Virus record (IMG/VR): IMGVR_UViG_3300032236_000774
Location: 1 to 42,943 of that record
Origin: a virus
Direction: 5' to 3' (one strand)
DNA length: 42,943 nt
The notes under the pieces are model-generated. The model saw only the letters and a list, made by a program, of their open reading frames with translations, was not told where the DNA came from and searched no databases. Positions 3,158 through 9,558 of the stretch are shown one piece after another. The position numbers were made by a program, and so were the translations under genes. The first letter of the stretch is position 1. Every line of letters starts with the position of its first letter.

Positions 3158-3778
3158 TTAAAAATCGCAGTTTTCTTGTTTTTTCCTAGCATGCCATTTG
3201 TAAGCAGCATCAGAGATGGCTTTTTTATGCTCTTCAGAAACCGTAATCTTTCCCTTCAATGACCTTCTGTATTCGGCTAACTTGCGCTTGCCTTCTTCAG
3301 TCATTGTCGATTTGCCCTTTTTGATTTCAGAAATCTTTTTCTTTTGTTCTTCTGACATTGGGCCAACTTTACGTCCCAAAGCTTTTTGTCGAATCTTGTC
3401 TTTTGATTCTTCGCTTAATTTTCGGCCTTTATGTGCTTGTCCAATTTTTCTTTTATGTTCATCACTCTTTGGCATCAATCCAATTTCATATGGAAATGGA
3501 TTTACGTTGTACCCATTCTTGATGGCATCCAATCTATCAATCCATTTGGCTTCCAAAACAGCCATTTCTTTGGTGTCAAAACTGCTCTCTGCAAGTAAAA
3601 ACTCAAATGCATCTTTTCCATACTTGTTGTAAGAGTTTTGCAGATAAGCAGAATGATGTTTACCTCGTGCAAGCTCTCTACGATGCGTAGTCCATCGTCT
3701 ATAAATGTTAATAGACGAACCAACGTAACACTTATTGGTTACTTTGTTTTTAATGAAATAAACGCCAGAAATGCTCAT
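3158..3778 (-). CDS. GIY-YIG endonuclease with NUMOD3 repeats (homing-type)
   Basis: A 206-residue site-specific DNA endonuclease of the homing type. Residues 1-90 are the GIY-YIG nuclease domain, with 'GVYFI' and 'CYVGSS' for the signature motif, the Arg of 'YRRW' and the Glu of 'VLEAKWI' as the expected catalytic residues. Residues about 100-200 carry four or so NUMOD3-type repeats ('SDEHKRKIGQAHKGRKLS', 'SEEQKKKISE', 'TEEGKRKLAE', 'SEEHKKAIS'), which bind DNA. It is the last gene of the leftward early operon, joined to the DUF5856 gene by an ATGA overlap, and is followed by a terminator. Such genes are mobile, so it is likely a late arrival. Confidence 0.88.
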   Translation of the reverse strand: MSISGVYFIKNKVTNKCYVGSSINIYRRWTTHRRELARGKHHSAYLQNSYNKYGKDAFEFLLAESSFDTKEMAVLEAKWIDRLDAIKNGYNVNPFPYEIGLMPKSDEHKRKIGQAHKGRKLSEESKDKIRQKALGRKVGPMSEEQKKKISEIKKGKSTMTEEGKRKLAEYRRSLKGKITVSEEHKKAISDAAYKWHARKKQENCDF

Positions 3779-4128
3779 CGCAAAAATTTGAGCTTATAAA
3801 TCGTGCTGTCGATTAACTGTGCAATTTCATCAACCAGGTTCTGAATTTCACTCTCTTGAGGCAAGACTACATGACGCTCTGTTTGCACATATTCTTTGAG
3901 AGCTTCTAGCTCATCCAAGCCATTGTCCAAGGGTGGGTAATAGTCAACTGGATATTGAATGATCTCGCCTGTCAAACCTTGGATAGCCTCGATCAAGTCA
4001 TCAACCTTGTCTGGCAGTTCTTGGTAAAACGTATTCAAAGCCATGTGCTCGGAAAAGCTTTTGGTCTGCAAATGCAGGATATGGGTATTGGTTGCTGCAT
4101 GCAGTAGTGATAACAAGAACTCACCCAT
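3775..4128 (-). CDS. DUF5856 family protein
   Basis: A 117-residue helical, acidic protein matching the phage family DUF5856, whose members begin with a conserved 'LLHAATNTHILHLQT' stretch and continue with 'YQELPDKVDDLIEAIQG'. Here the N-terminal part is intact, so the full-length start at 4128 is kept rather than the internal Met. The family is widespread in phages of Gram-negative hosts and its role is unknown. The histidines in the first helix and the overall helical-bundle pattern hint at a ferritin-like metal-binding fold (inference). It overlaps the genes on both sides. Confidence 0.7.
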   Translation of the reverse strand: MGEFLLSLLHAATNTHILHLQTKSFSEHMALNTFYQELPDKVDDLIEAIQGLTGEIIQYPVDYYPPLDNGLDELEALKEYVQTERHVVLPQESEIQNLVDEIAQLIDSTIYKLKFLR

Positions 4129-4483
4129 AACTTACTCCTAAATGGTCTAAAACATCTCGGGCAGCTTTAACTTTCCAAGGTCTTAGGCAATGATTTTCCG
4201 CTATTTTAGTCCAAGCGTCTATTTGCCTCTCATAAGCATCTTTGAATACTTCCTTTTGCTGTTCAGAGGTCATATCGCCTTGGTCCAGCATGGTGTGGCA
4301 GAAGTAACAACCCCAAACCGTTCTGCTGTCATCTGCCTTTAATCCCATGCCTTTACCTGCTTCCAGGCTGTTTTCATGGCAAGCAACGGTGGTAGAGCCT
4401 TCACCTGTCAGGCAGCGTTTATGGATGTTGAGCAAGCATTCTTCATCCCTTGCCAATGCTAATAAGTCTTTATTTCTGTACAT
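4121..4483 (-). CDS. YbcO-like putative nuclease (DUF1364 family)
   Basis: A 120-residue protein of the YbcO/DUF1364 group, a zinc-containing HNH-like nuclease family of lambdoid prophages. Visible elements are 'CLLNI' and 'RCLTG', then 'VACHENS' and 'GKGMGLKADD', then 'WGCYFCHTMLD', which give the Cys/His metal ligands and the histidine expected at the active site. In lambdoid phages this gene commonly lies beside rusA, as it does a few genes away here, pointing to a role in processing recombination or replication intermediates. It overlaps both neighbours by 8 to 14 nt. Confidence 0.75.
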   Translation of the reverse strand: MYRNKDLLALARDEECLLNIHKRCLTGEGSTTVACHENSLEAGKGMGLKADDSRTVWGCYFCHTMLDQGDMTSEQQKEVFKDAYERQIDAWTKIAENHCLRPWKVKAARDVLDHLGVSYG

Positions 4484-7280: not shown

Positions 7281-8036
7281 TTAAATTGAACAGATCAAGC
7301 AGCCTTGACCCTGTTCGTTATTCCACTTTCCACGTTGGCTTGTCCACAATGATTTCCCAATTTTTTCGGAAACAATCATGGTTTGTTCGTATTGTTTCTT
7401 GCCAAAATCATCGTGCTTAAAGGCTTTTTCTTTCCATTGGTCACCTCCAGCAAGGCAAGGAAAGCAACCTACACGGTCAAATCCTTCGTCATACAAAGGG
7501 TTGTGTTTGCCTTCAAGAAACGTAAAAACCTCTTTTGTTGACCAATCAAGCACTGGCAATCTAAATTTGACTCCCATTTTTCCTAGATATTTAGGATATT
7601 TGCTAGGCATGATTTCGTGAGGTTCATATAAATCATCTGAAAGTTTGAACTCATAACGCTTTTCTCTTTCATACGATTCATCGCTTCTCATGCCATACCA
7701 AACCTCAAAAGGTCCTTGTTTTTTAGCAAGTGAGGTGATGTAGTCTTTAGTTGGCCTGATTTTTAGGTAATCAGTACAGTGTCTACTTCCACCACCAGGA
7801 AACCTTCCCCATTTTTCTGATTGTTGCAAAACAGAACCCATGCAAACAGTGTCAATTTCAACTTGATACCAGTTACGCAAGTTATCCACATGCTGATAAG
7901 TCAATGGATGCTCAAACTTTGTATCGCAGAACAAACCCAAAATTTCGCTGTTTTTGAACTTTTGCAAAGCAAGCTTTAAGCAGGATTGACTATCTTTGCC
8001 ACCAGAAATGGGGACCACTACTTTGTACGTTGCCAT
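7281..8036 (-). CDS. PP-loop ATPase, phosphoadenosine-phosphosulfate-reductase-like
   Basis: A 251-residue member of the PP-loop (adenylation) superfamily, close to PAPS reductases and DndC. 'SGGKDS' at residues 11-16 is the pyrophosphate-binding loop. Cys87 in 'RHCTDYLK', Cys191/Cys194 in 'GCFPC' and Cys246/Cys249 in the terminal 'CLICS' give the Cys set typical of forms that bind an Fe-S cluster. Such phage proteins are often annotated PAPS reductase but seldom tested, and a role in sulfur- or adenylation-based modification of nucleic acid is an alternative. The start at 8036 is preferred because extra upstream residues come only from TTG- or ATG-linked overlap with the previous gene. It sits between replication genes. 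Confidence 0.78.
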   Translation of the reverse strand: MATYKVVVPISGGKDSQSCLKLALQKFKNSEILGLFCDTKFEHPLTYQHVDNLRNWYQVEIDTVCMGSVLQQSEKWGRFPGGGSRHCTDYLKIRPTKDYITSLAKKQGPFEVWYGMRSDESYEREKRYEFKLSDDLYEPHEIMPSKYPKYLGKMGVKFRLPVLDWSTKEVFTFLEGKHNPLYDEGFDRVGCFPCLAGGDQWKEKAFKHDDFGKKQYEQTMIVSEKIGKSLWTSQRGKWNNEQGQGCLICSI

Positions 8037-8350
8037 ATGTTCGTCCATCCTTCTTGTTGCCATGCTAACTTGCCAGATTGGTGATGTGAACTAGCAATAA
8101 CCCTAGCTCCAGCACATTTGCAAGCCTCAAAAAGCTCTTTAGCGCGTTTTTCTGTGTCTGCACATATGCTGACCACCATTCCCACACAAAAACGCATATC
8201 AAGCGTTTTAATCGGTTCTAGATGGGTACATACCGTACAGAAGTCGTCGTTTTCCCACCAATCTGTTTGGCAAGGGTAGTCGTTGATGAAGATGATTTGT
8301 GGTGCTTGACCTTCGAGTCTCATTCGGACGATCTCCTCATGGCCTCTCAT
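8018..8350 (-). CDS. Hypothetical Cys-rich protein paired with the PP-loop gene
   Basis: A 110-residue protein with four cysteines in the first half in 'YPCQTDWW', 'FCTVC' and 'RFCVG', then a helix and a strand ('GARVIASSHH'). It looks like a small alpha/beta domain with a possible metal site. I recognise no named family. It overlaps the PP-loop gene by 19 nt and the replication-protein gene by 4 nt, so it is made together with both. Close overlap with the PP-loop gene suggests a partner protein. Confidence 0.6.
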   Translation of the reverse strand: MRGHEEIVRMRLEGQAPQIIFINDYPCQTDWWENDDFCTVCTHLEPIKTLDMRFCVGMVVSICADTEKRAKELFEACKCAGARVIASSHHQSGKLAWQQEGWTNIWQRTK

Positions 8351-8979
8351 AGCAGCCTTAGTTTGTTGTAAGCAGACATGGATTGATCTTTTTTCTGCTG
8401 TTCAAAGCTAGGCTTAGAAGCTACCCATTCAGCCTTAAAAGAACGCCAACCTCGAACGCAAATTTCTTCCAAAGCTTTTTCCAAAGTCCAACCAGCGATC
8501 TCAGCTTCAGAAGCAATTTTTCGTAGCACCAAAGTTGAGATTTCAGCTTTAGCTTTTTTCCTTTGCCGAACAAAGGATTCCCAAACTTCATCAGATACAG
8601 AATCAGGCTTGCCAACTGCTGTTGGCTTCTTCTCTTTCTCTGCCTCTCTCTCTGTCTCTGGGATAGCATCTTGCTTGCTATCTGCTAGCACTCCGCTAGC
8701 AACAATGAAAAATCCTTTATGAATCAATGGCTTAACTCCATCCTCATACTCTTTTGAGGTGATGTGAAGTCTAAAGACAAGCTCATCTACCGAACCATCA
8801 AAAGTACCGTCTTTTGTCTCACTTGCTAGCAGCCAGAGTAACGGTGCTAGTGCCTTGCTAGCGATAGGCAAGCGCATGAATTCTCTGTCGTTCAGCAAAT
8901 CACGGTGAAGCTTTATCCAAGGTGGGCAACGGTCTTTGTAGTGCTGGAAAGCAGACCAGTTTTTAGGTTGCAAGAGCAT
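8347..8979 (-). CDS. Replication initiator/helicase-loader-like protein
   Basis: A 210-residue protein resembling phage replication proteins of the lambda O / DnaD type. The first 100 residues ('WIKLHRDLLNDREFMRLP' and 'SKALAPLLWLLASE') look like a winged-helix DNA-binding domain. A charged linker follows (about 108-125), then a helical C-terminal part ending in 'SMSAYNKLRLL', as in helicase loaders. The start ATG 8979 is preceded by GGAG at good spacing; the frame extends only to a TTG 12 nt upstream. The ribosome binding site directly abuts the U-run of an intrinsic terminator, so expression must depend on read-through or antitermination. The helicase lies two genes downstream. Confidence 0.7.
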   Translation of the reverse strand: MLLQPKNWSAFQHYKDRCPPWIKLHRDLLNDREFMRLPIASKALAPLLWLLASETKDGTFDGSVDELVFRLHITSKEYEDGVKPLIHKGFFIVASGVLADSKQDAIPETEREAEKEKKPTAVGKPDSVSDEVWESFVRQRKKAKAEISTLVLRKIASEAEIAGWTLEKALEEICVRGWRSFKAEWVASKPSFEQQKKDQSMSAYNKLRLL

Positions 8980-8988
8980 CTGTATCTC

Positions 8989-9039
8989 CAAAAAAAATGC
9001 CCCTGAAGTCCGGTAGTACGAGTACCAAACCTCAGAGGC
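8989..9039 (-). terminator. Intrinsic terminator/attenuator in the replication-gene leader
   Basis: On the minus strand a 17-bp stem (arms 9023-9039 and 8999-9015, a few G-U wobbles, no mismatches) with a 7-nt loop CTCGTAC is followed by eight T residues (8990-8997). It is a strong rho-independent terminator, yet its U-run ends at the GGAG of the next gene's ribosome binding site. This leaves no room for a separate promoter, so it should attenuate expression of the replication genes unless bypassed. Confidence 0.8.
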
Positions 9040-9047
9040 AAGCCAGG

Positions 9048-9097
9048 AGATGGCTTAGACATGTCTGGACCTCGTACGCCCAATATCTAAACCATCT
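9048..9097 (-). ncRNA. Structured leader hairpin with kissing-loop complementarity to the terminator
   Basis: On the minus strand the 12-bp arms AGATGGTTTAGA (9086-9097) and TCTAAGCCATCT (9048-9059) pair with one wobble around a 26-nt loop. The loop contains GTACGAG (9071-9077), the exact reverse complement of the full 7-nt terminator loop (9016-9022). The two hairpins could form a kissing complex or alternate states. Together with the terminator this looks like a cis-acting control RNA or a short noncoding transcript end. A replication-origin role for the same DNA is an alternative. Confidence 0.5.
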
Positions 9098-9109
9098 GCC
9101 AAAAGTGTA

Positions 9110-9214
9110 TCACTTCTTTTCCGGTTGTTCCTTCTTTTTACCAAAAATCTTGTCCCAGTTCTCGTCAAACTTCTTACGGTCTGGGATAGGACGGGGTGCT
9201 GATCCTTTGCTCAT
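9110..9214 (-). CDS. 34-residue basic small phage protein
   Basis: A short gene with a strong AAGGAG ribosome binding site spaced for ATG 9214. The peptide begins 'MSKGSAPRPIPD', continues with 'FDENWDKIFG' and ends in a lysine-rich tail. Similar 30-50-residue peptides with 'SKGS.PRP' starts and 'W..IFGKK' ends recur in phages of this kind, which supports it. Function unknown. It is the last gene before the structured leader and terminator. Confidence 0.7.
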   Translation of the reverse strand: MSKGSAPRPIPDRKKFDENWDKIFGKKKEQPEKK

Positions 9215-9226
9215 GTGTTCTTCTCC

Positions 9227-9295
9227 TTACTTCAAAAAAATCCACATCCAAACACAAAAAACAACAGTCAAACAAATTGCTTTTATGTCGCTCAT
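9227..9295 (-). CDS. 22-residue membrane microprotein
   Basis: A short frame starting in an ATGA overlap with the preceding gene. The codons just before encode AAGGAG, serving as its ribosome binding site. The product is a single hydrophobic helix ('CLTVVFCVWMWIFL'), probably inserted in the membrane. It fills the 70-nt gap between two genes. Function unknown. Confidence 0.5.
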   Translation of the reverse strand: MSDIKAICLTVVFCVWMWIFLK

Positions 9296-9558
9296 CCGTT
9301 GCGCTCCTTTAACTTGGCTTTGACGGCTTTCAATACGCATGCAACAGTCGTGCAGTTGTTTTTGATTTCTTGCTCATCTTCAGGAGATAGCCAAACCCAT
9401 TCACGCTTTCGAGGCGCATGAACCATTTCATCACCCTCCCATACAGCACCGCATACGCAATTTAATTCAGGCTTTTGGGATTCAAGTTCAATGATGCGGT
9501 CAATCGCATTACGAGCAATCATGGCTACATCTTTAATTGCTTGTTCACTGTGCTTCAT
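9292..9558 (-). CDS. Modular early protein with REWVWL C-terminal module
   Basis: An 88-residue protein belonging to the array of related genes in 9292-11525. The N-terminal helix ('HSEQAIKDVAMIARNAIDR') is followed by a CxC pair ('NCVCGAVW'). The shared C-terminal module starts 'REWVWLSPEDE' and ends 'KAKLKERNG'. ATG 9558 is chosen over upstream codons because it overlaps the previous stop by ATGA and follows GGAGAAG. Function of the module is unknown. Confidence 0.65.
   Translation of the reverse strand: MKHSEQAIKDVAMIARNAIDRIIELESQKPELNCVCGAVWEGDEMVHAPRKREWVWLSPEDEQEIKNNCTTVACVLKAVKAKLKERNG

Follow-up and report, generated by a model that had tools for sequence, protein, structure and literature searches.

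A Phage Leader RNA Class in Which the Terminator Loop Is Complementary to the Loop of the Preceding Hairpin

The leader of a replication gene on the minus strand of a virus record of 42,943 bases (the window, that is, the whole stretch of DNA analyzed here) belongs to a so far undescribed class of RNA leaders in phages, recognized by its architecture, its recurrence in unrelated phages, and the compensatory evolution of its loops. From the sequences, the leader is probably a portable transcription attenuator in which read-through would be set by a kissing contact between two loops, in cis and perhaps in trans, a reading that we favor with moderate confidence.

Results

Architecture of the Leader in the Window

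The order of elements along the minus strand is an extended −10 box, hairpin 1, a terminator hairpin, a U8 tract, GGAG, and an ATG that opens an O/DnaD-like replication gene. Individually, these are:

9110..9214, minus strand: 34-aa upstream gene, near-identical in the relative L570 (sequence comparison)
9104..9112, minus strand: promoter-like box of the extended −10 type, TGATACACT, which shares bases with the TGA stop codon of the 34-aa upstream gene (sequence)
9049..9096, minus strand: hairpin 1, a 7-nt loop on a 5-bp inner stem that is separated by a 3-nt bulge from the 14-bp outer stem (MFE fold; pair counts on 31 members)
9071..9077, minus strand: loop 1, GTACGAG (RNA GUACGAG), the exact reverse complement of loop 2 (sequence, fold, covariation)
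9065-9063, minus strand: 3-nt bulge of hairpin 1, on the 3′ strand (MFE fold)
8998..9040, minus strand: hairpin 2, an intrinsic terminator with an 18-bp stem and a 7-nt loop (MFE fold, covariation)
9016..9022, minus strand: loop 2, CTCGTAC (RNA CUCGUAC) (sequence, fold)
8990..8997, minus strand: U8 tract of the terminator (sequence)
8986..8989, minus strand: GGAG ribosome binding site, abutting the U-tract (sequence)
8347..8979, minus strand: downstream gene, a 210-aa O-like/DnaD-like replication initiator with its ATG at 8979-8977 (PHROG matches)

The box TGATACACT at 9104..9112 is called promoter-like by comparison with the −10 and extended −10 consensus. Both hairpins and both loops of an earlier sequence-only reading were recovered in the sequence and the MFE fold where that reading had placed them. 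Equally, the terminator loop (9022-9016) is the full reverse complement of GTACGAG (9077-9071), and U8 leads into GGAG (8989-8986) and then the ATG, just as had been read. The 26-nt loop assigned to hairpin 1 has to be revised: within the 12-bp stem that had been read, the chain forms a second stem of 5 bp, set off by a 3-nt bulge. This bulged inner stem presents exactly the 7 complementary bases, and the two loops of the window are both 7 nt long and fully complementary.

In the fold, the linker between hairpin 1 and the terminator is five bases long. The pair of hairpins has a folding energy of −58.8 kcal/mol against a mean of −35.4 for shuffled sequences (z = −6.4), and 0 of 200 shuffles were as stable. 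The 18-bp hairpin at 8998-9040 followed by U8 has the structure of an intrinsic terminator, with termination itself predicted. The window leader has the defining features of the class, namely a 7-nt loop 1, its exact complement as the terminator loop, and a start codon shortly after the U-tract. Covariance model R1 scores the window leader, which is one of its training rows, at 108 bits.

The initiator encoded at 8347..8979 matches phrog_26426 (replication protein, 1.2e-31) and phrog_678 (replication initiation, O-like, 1e-15). A PAPS-reductase-like gene (7281-8063, minus strand) lies within the replication region, between the initiator and a DnaB-like helicase gene, and genes for a GIY-YIG-type homing endonuclease and an HNH endonuclease are found at 3158-3778 and 4121-4483 (minus strand).

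Recurrence of the Leader and Complementarity of Its Loops

A descriptor scan of fetched loci showed that the architecture of the window leader recurs with different, still complementary loop letters. A pattern on hairpin 1 alone retrieved 91 stretches, and the exact 7-nt complement was present downstream in 44 of the 64 distinct matches with enough flank. It was absent in the other 20, which we read as chance or antisense matches. Since this selection itself used the complement, three membership tests independent of it were run. In the pattern-found set, all 35 leaders passing a test for the inner stem and the terminator have the exact 7-nt loop complement; another 66 pattern matches failed this test, among them 14 leaders that have the complement and were lost at the search for a terminator. 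When three substitutions were allowed, 2 of 38 rows passing the stem and terminator test lacked the complement, both with poor stems. Likewise, 53 of 53 distinct matches to R1 (of 75 supplied, with one of the 53, L098, placed by hand) are complementary and have 15 different loops; R1 does not model the loop pairing, yet all of its training rows had it. The third test was a scan anchored on the terminator stem only, with the loop left free, and gave 22 complementary leaders out of 22 distinct ones in an AT-rich subfamily. Their loops are of three kinds: GTTGCAG (12 leaders), GTACGAG (9), and GTAAGAG (1). In all 22, loop 1 ends in AG and loop 2 begins with CT, which the pattern did not require; for the first clade, the terminal AG of loop 1 had been built into the pattern.

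The pooled sets contain 17 loop sequences in total. A descriptor of the 7-nt loop-loop pairing plus terminator found 77 matches on both strands of 10.9 Mb, three of them antisense readings, and no match across 1.78 Mb of loci that had been retrieved for unrelated purposes. On the three sets and this absence, chance complementarity was rejected. The sequence-only reading had proposed a loop-loop contact and asked whether homologues keep the terminator while losing the complementarity; in all three sets the opposite is the case, which strongly supports the contact.

The same shape is built on unrelated stems. A scan that fixed only the two loops of the window and a T-run retrieved 87 stretches with 51 distinct matches, of which 24 passed a strict stem test, and most of the stems are unrelated to those of the window. 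Several of these matches come from AT-rich phages, in which the U-tract is followed by the start codon and a ribosome site is not obvious. Upstream of the leader, 20 of 22 members of the AT-rich subfamily have a TAnnTTTG box, which corresponds to the promoter element of Bacteroidota; because of this box, the leader class probably spans phages of distant hosts. The 5-bp stem below the 7-nt loop is near-universal, with five pairs in 22 of 27 clusters and four in the others (two of the 27 being antisense readings). The 3-nt bulge on the 3′ side is common to the clade of the window and the unrelated L676. It is not universal: among the 61 elements whose outer stem is good, an offset of 3 fits best in 54, but counted by sequence cluster it does so in only 8 of 14. 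The lengths of hairpin 1 and of the linker correlate weakly (−0.41 over 33 clusters), and this correlation was not relied on. Alike HNH-like proteins with a DPRWQKKRLE motif follow the leader in L481, L512, and L515 and in L034, L611, and L656, and thus occur in both the clade of the window and the AT-rich subfamily despite the unrelated leader stems.

Covariation and Divergence of the Loops

Covariation was assessed in an alignment (A2) of 31 rows, made from the 44 complementary pattern matches minus near-copies and the truncated L529, so that complementarity within it is partly by construction. Of the seven loop pairs, five have changed at both positions, always as Watson-Crick pairs. Over the whole structure, 31 pairs changed on both sides compared with a shuffled mean of 20.2, and 0 of 500 shuffles were as high by any measure. 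On this covariation, the loop-loop pairing is established.

Counted per site, loop divergence exceeds that of the remaining leader by only a small margin, a point that we count against kiss-gated attenuation. In the classes of close pairs, the divergence of loops and rest was 0.109 and 0.062, 0.131 and 0.111, and 0.253 and 0.205, respectively; in the most distant class, that of the loops fell below that of the core (0.418 versus 0.448). Among close leader pairs, the loops change at least as fast as the rest, though each change must occur twice.

Exchange of the Downstream Gene in a Close Relative

The relative L570 is syntenic with the window, with 82.8%–88% identity over the main flanking blocks and 94.7% across the upstream gene and leader. 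The replication gene of the window (8370-8984) is replaced in L570 by a non-homologous initiator. With it, loop 1 has changed from GTACGAG to GGTCGAG and loop 2 from CTCGTAC to CTCGACC in a leader that is otherwise almost unchanged, a single case. The junction of the swap lies at the end of the leader (L570 1489-1736 versus window 8370-9227). All five genomes with two true copies of the leader carry two different loops, which could be chance.

Promoters and Downstream Genes

In 45 aligned members, hairpin 1 is preceded at a constant distance by a TATAAT-like box, and the clade with GTACCAG loops (L434, L468, and others) additionally has a TTGACA-like box upstream. An open reading frame starts 5–13 nt past nearly all R1 matches. 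For 70 of 72 matches, a frame of at least 40 aa, or an open one, starts a few bases after the U-tract; the other two have no frame of 40 aa. In the AT-rich subfamily, an ATG is found 6–9 nt past TTTT in 22 of 22 leaders. From the −10-like box before hairpin 1 and the start after the U-tract, the unit consists of promoter, hairpin, terminator, and gene.

The downstream genes fall into 25 sequence clusters. They encode HNH proteins with or without AP2, several unrelated replication initiators, DUF1376, RdgC, and Rha proteins, as well as ParB-like, SNF2/DNA methylase, and GIY-YIG proteins. One cluster holds 26 of the 70 genes, from GTACCAG loci, and is represented by an HNH+AP2 homing-endonuclease-like protein. 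The leader had been read as a switch for replication genes; replication initiators are indeed among the genes behind it, but given the 25 clusters this description is too narrow, and a replication-only switch was rejected. A replication origin, the other possibility raised from the sequence, found no support and was rejected as well, since the leader also precedes unrelated, non-replication genes.

Database Searches and a Different RNA in Relatives of the Replication Gene

No Rfam family, C4 antisense RNA and isrK included, matched at the gathering threshold across the whole window. At E values up to 10, positions 8900-9300 gave no match, including to RF02996, C4 antisense RNA, and isrK. Membership in a known Rfam 15 family was rejected for want of a match at the elements tested. 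A hit of another kind was noted at L671 178-226 (minus strand), where DUF3800-XI RNA scored 35.5 bits, just under its gathering score of 37.8.

Close relatives of the window's replication protein mostly have a different RNA at the leader position. The int-alpA RNA (RF02996, gathering score 35.8 bits) was found in L009 at 38.6 bits and just under threshold in L010 (34.6) and L008 (34.0). By a strict motif, int-alpA-like RNAs make up 54 of 84 distinct replication-gene leaders, some of these loci having been fetched with that motif, and in most relatives the replication gene follows them immediately (L004-L010, L136, and L254-L333). The loop of their hairpin is complementary to the sequence just before the start codon: the longest exact complement averages 6.04 over 51 leaders, compared with a mean of 3.99 for shuffled targets and a maximum of 4.76 in 200 shuffles. 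Such complementarity points to C4-like antisense action by a family that is otherwise listed simply as an sRNA.

Searches with R1 of 14 genomes, of 299 of one family, and of 399 of one order gave no match, which is uninformative without a positive control. Named phages yielded one good match (MW202710.1) and plasmids a terminator-sized match only; an AT-rich member gave four weak partial matches and L468 none. Megablast of window positions 1-25000 found no phage. No description of the leader was found in the open-access journal literature searched. Phage attenuator leaders are a known broad kind; the core device of this one, a terminator loop apparently kissed by the preceding hairpin, was not found described there.

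Discussion

From known biology, a strong terminator between a promoter and a gene must hold down expression, and a short RNA should be set free at it. In an attenuator of the kind we favor, most transcripts would end at the U-tract and yield an RNA of ∼110 nt. Hairpin 1 would fold first, and loop 1 would meet loop 2 as the latter leaves the polymerase, just before the U-tract is made. From the end of loop 2 to the U-tract there are 18 nt, and the polymerase covers about 14 nt of RNA, so that loop 2 should be available just before the termination decision. The kiss would alter the chance of termination and so set the frequency of read-through into the gene. Terminated leaders would bear both loops as well; as they accumulate, they could bind in trans to the loops of newly made leaders and bring about a dose-dependent, sequence-specific shut-off. 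The direction of the effect is a guess and the weakest step: a kiss in cis may favor read-through and occupation in trans termination. That a kiss would promote termination is not obvious because the terminators look strong unaided.

A loop-loop kiss that steers termination, as first read from the sequence, is plausible and fits the anatomy, and a second role for the terminated leader as a small RNA is possible. The complementarity stops at the loops and misses the terminator arm, unlike that of a classical antiterminator, which we count against attenuation. Because both stems can thus stay formed, a kissing complex fits better than a classical antiterminator. The link of only a few nucleotides between the two long hairpins in the proteobacterial-type clade also counts against it, since a full 7-bp kiss in cis would probably need a bend at the 3-nt bulge. 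The varying loop code argues for recognition between molecules too, as described for IsrK (PMC4825925).

A bolder and more tentative extension, which we consider somewhat doubtful, would be that each leader bears a private seven-letter code. The terminated RNA would then be a sequence-specific regulator, able to diffuse, of every copy with the same code, the code would change with the guarded gene, and the whole would amount to an immunity or incompatibility group made of RNA only, with phages of distant host groups gating early genes by a portable cassette.

The changing code can also be explained by a leader that acts only in trans, as an antisense RNA whose loops target other copies of the leader for self-immunity or copy control in the manner of the P4 CI RNA and IsrK, intramolecular pairing being irrelevant. 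The 17 strictly complementary loop sequences, the different loops in all five two-copy genomes (possibly by chance), and the loop of L570 that changed along with the replication gene are consistent with such an RNA, and IsrK is a precedent, its short RNA acting in trans on the longer read-through form of itself (PMC4825925). We consider this unlikely. No orphan half was seen, in that each hairpin 1 or terminator found without the complement criterion had its partner in the same leader, and homing-endonuclease and methylase genes need no immunity.

The constant adjacency of the two hairpins in cis, together with a geometry of 3-nt bulge and 5-bp stem that much of the set shares, could instead reflect a purely structural element. 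The kiss would then make the 3′ end compact and stable, or act as a partial terminator of fixed strength, and give constant low expression with no regulation. A fixed weak terminator needs no loop code that changes in step through 17 versions, which makes this reading less probable still. That the kissing shape is a platform recognized by a protein or the polymerase, which would then resist this and later terminators (compare HK022 put and the Rop-bound RNA I/RNA II), accords with a conserved shape without conserved sequence and with the 5′ position in the transcript, yet is very improbable given that the leader ends in its own terminator, which put is not known to do.

If the attenuator reading is true, the leader would be a widespread, protein-free phage attenuator in which termination is gated by an upstream hairpin kissing the terminator loop, and would represent a class of structured RNA that is new and strongly covarying. 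Regulation of early phage genes and of homing endonucleases could then be looked for in a new place, orthogonal RNA switches could be drawn from nature, and the leader would serve as a clean system in which to study how intrinsic termination responds to contacts that the nascent RNA makes.

Among the closest known systems is the IsrK sRNA of the Salmonella prophage Gifsy-1, which has its own promoter and terminator and by read-through gives a longer mRNA bearing the same leader (PMC4825925). The short form acts in trans upon that read-through transcript, its loops or arms being able to pair with the mRNA, and the P4 seqA/CI RNA is named there as the structural homologue of IsrK (PMC4825925). 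In the window leader, a promoter-like box and a predicted terminator stand before the gene, which may make it a unit of this kind. IsrK differs in that its pairing region lies beyond its terminator and its effect is on translation; in the window leader, the partner is the loop of the terminator itself. RNAs of the int-alpA type, which we group with C4 antisense RNA, resemble the window leader in their place before the same replication gene family in many relatives and in having a complementary loop; they differ in fold and motif and in their target, which is unstructured leader sequence near the start codon. Early transcripts of phage HK022 begin with a pair of hairpins, the put RNA, that acts on termination as an antiterminator; unlike the window leader, put is not known to have loop-loop pairing or a built-in terminator. 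In ColE1, RNA I and RNA II kiss through fully complementary 7-nt loops, and in pT181-type plasmids an antisense RNA controls transcription termination. The window leader is like both in the loop-loop recognition between hairpins and in the loop sequence as a specificity code; in pT181 and ColE1 the partner RNA comes from the opposite strand, whereas in the window both hairpins lie in one RNA, transcribed from one strand.
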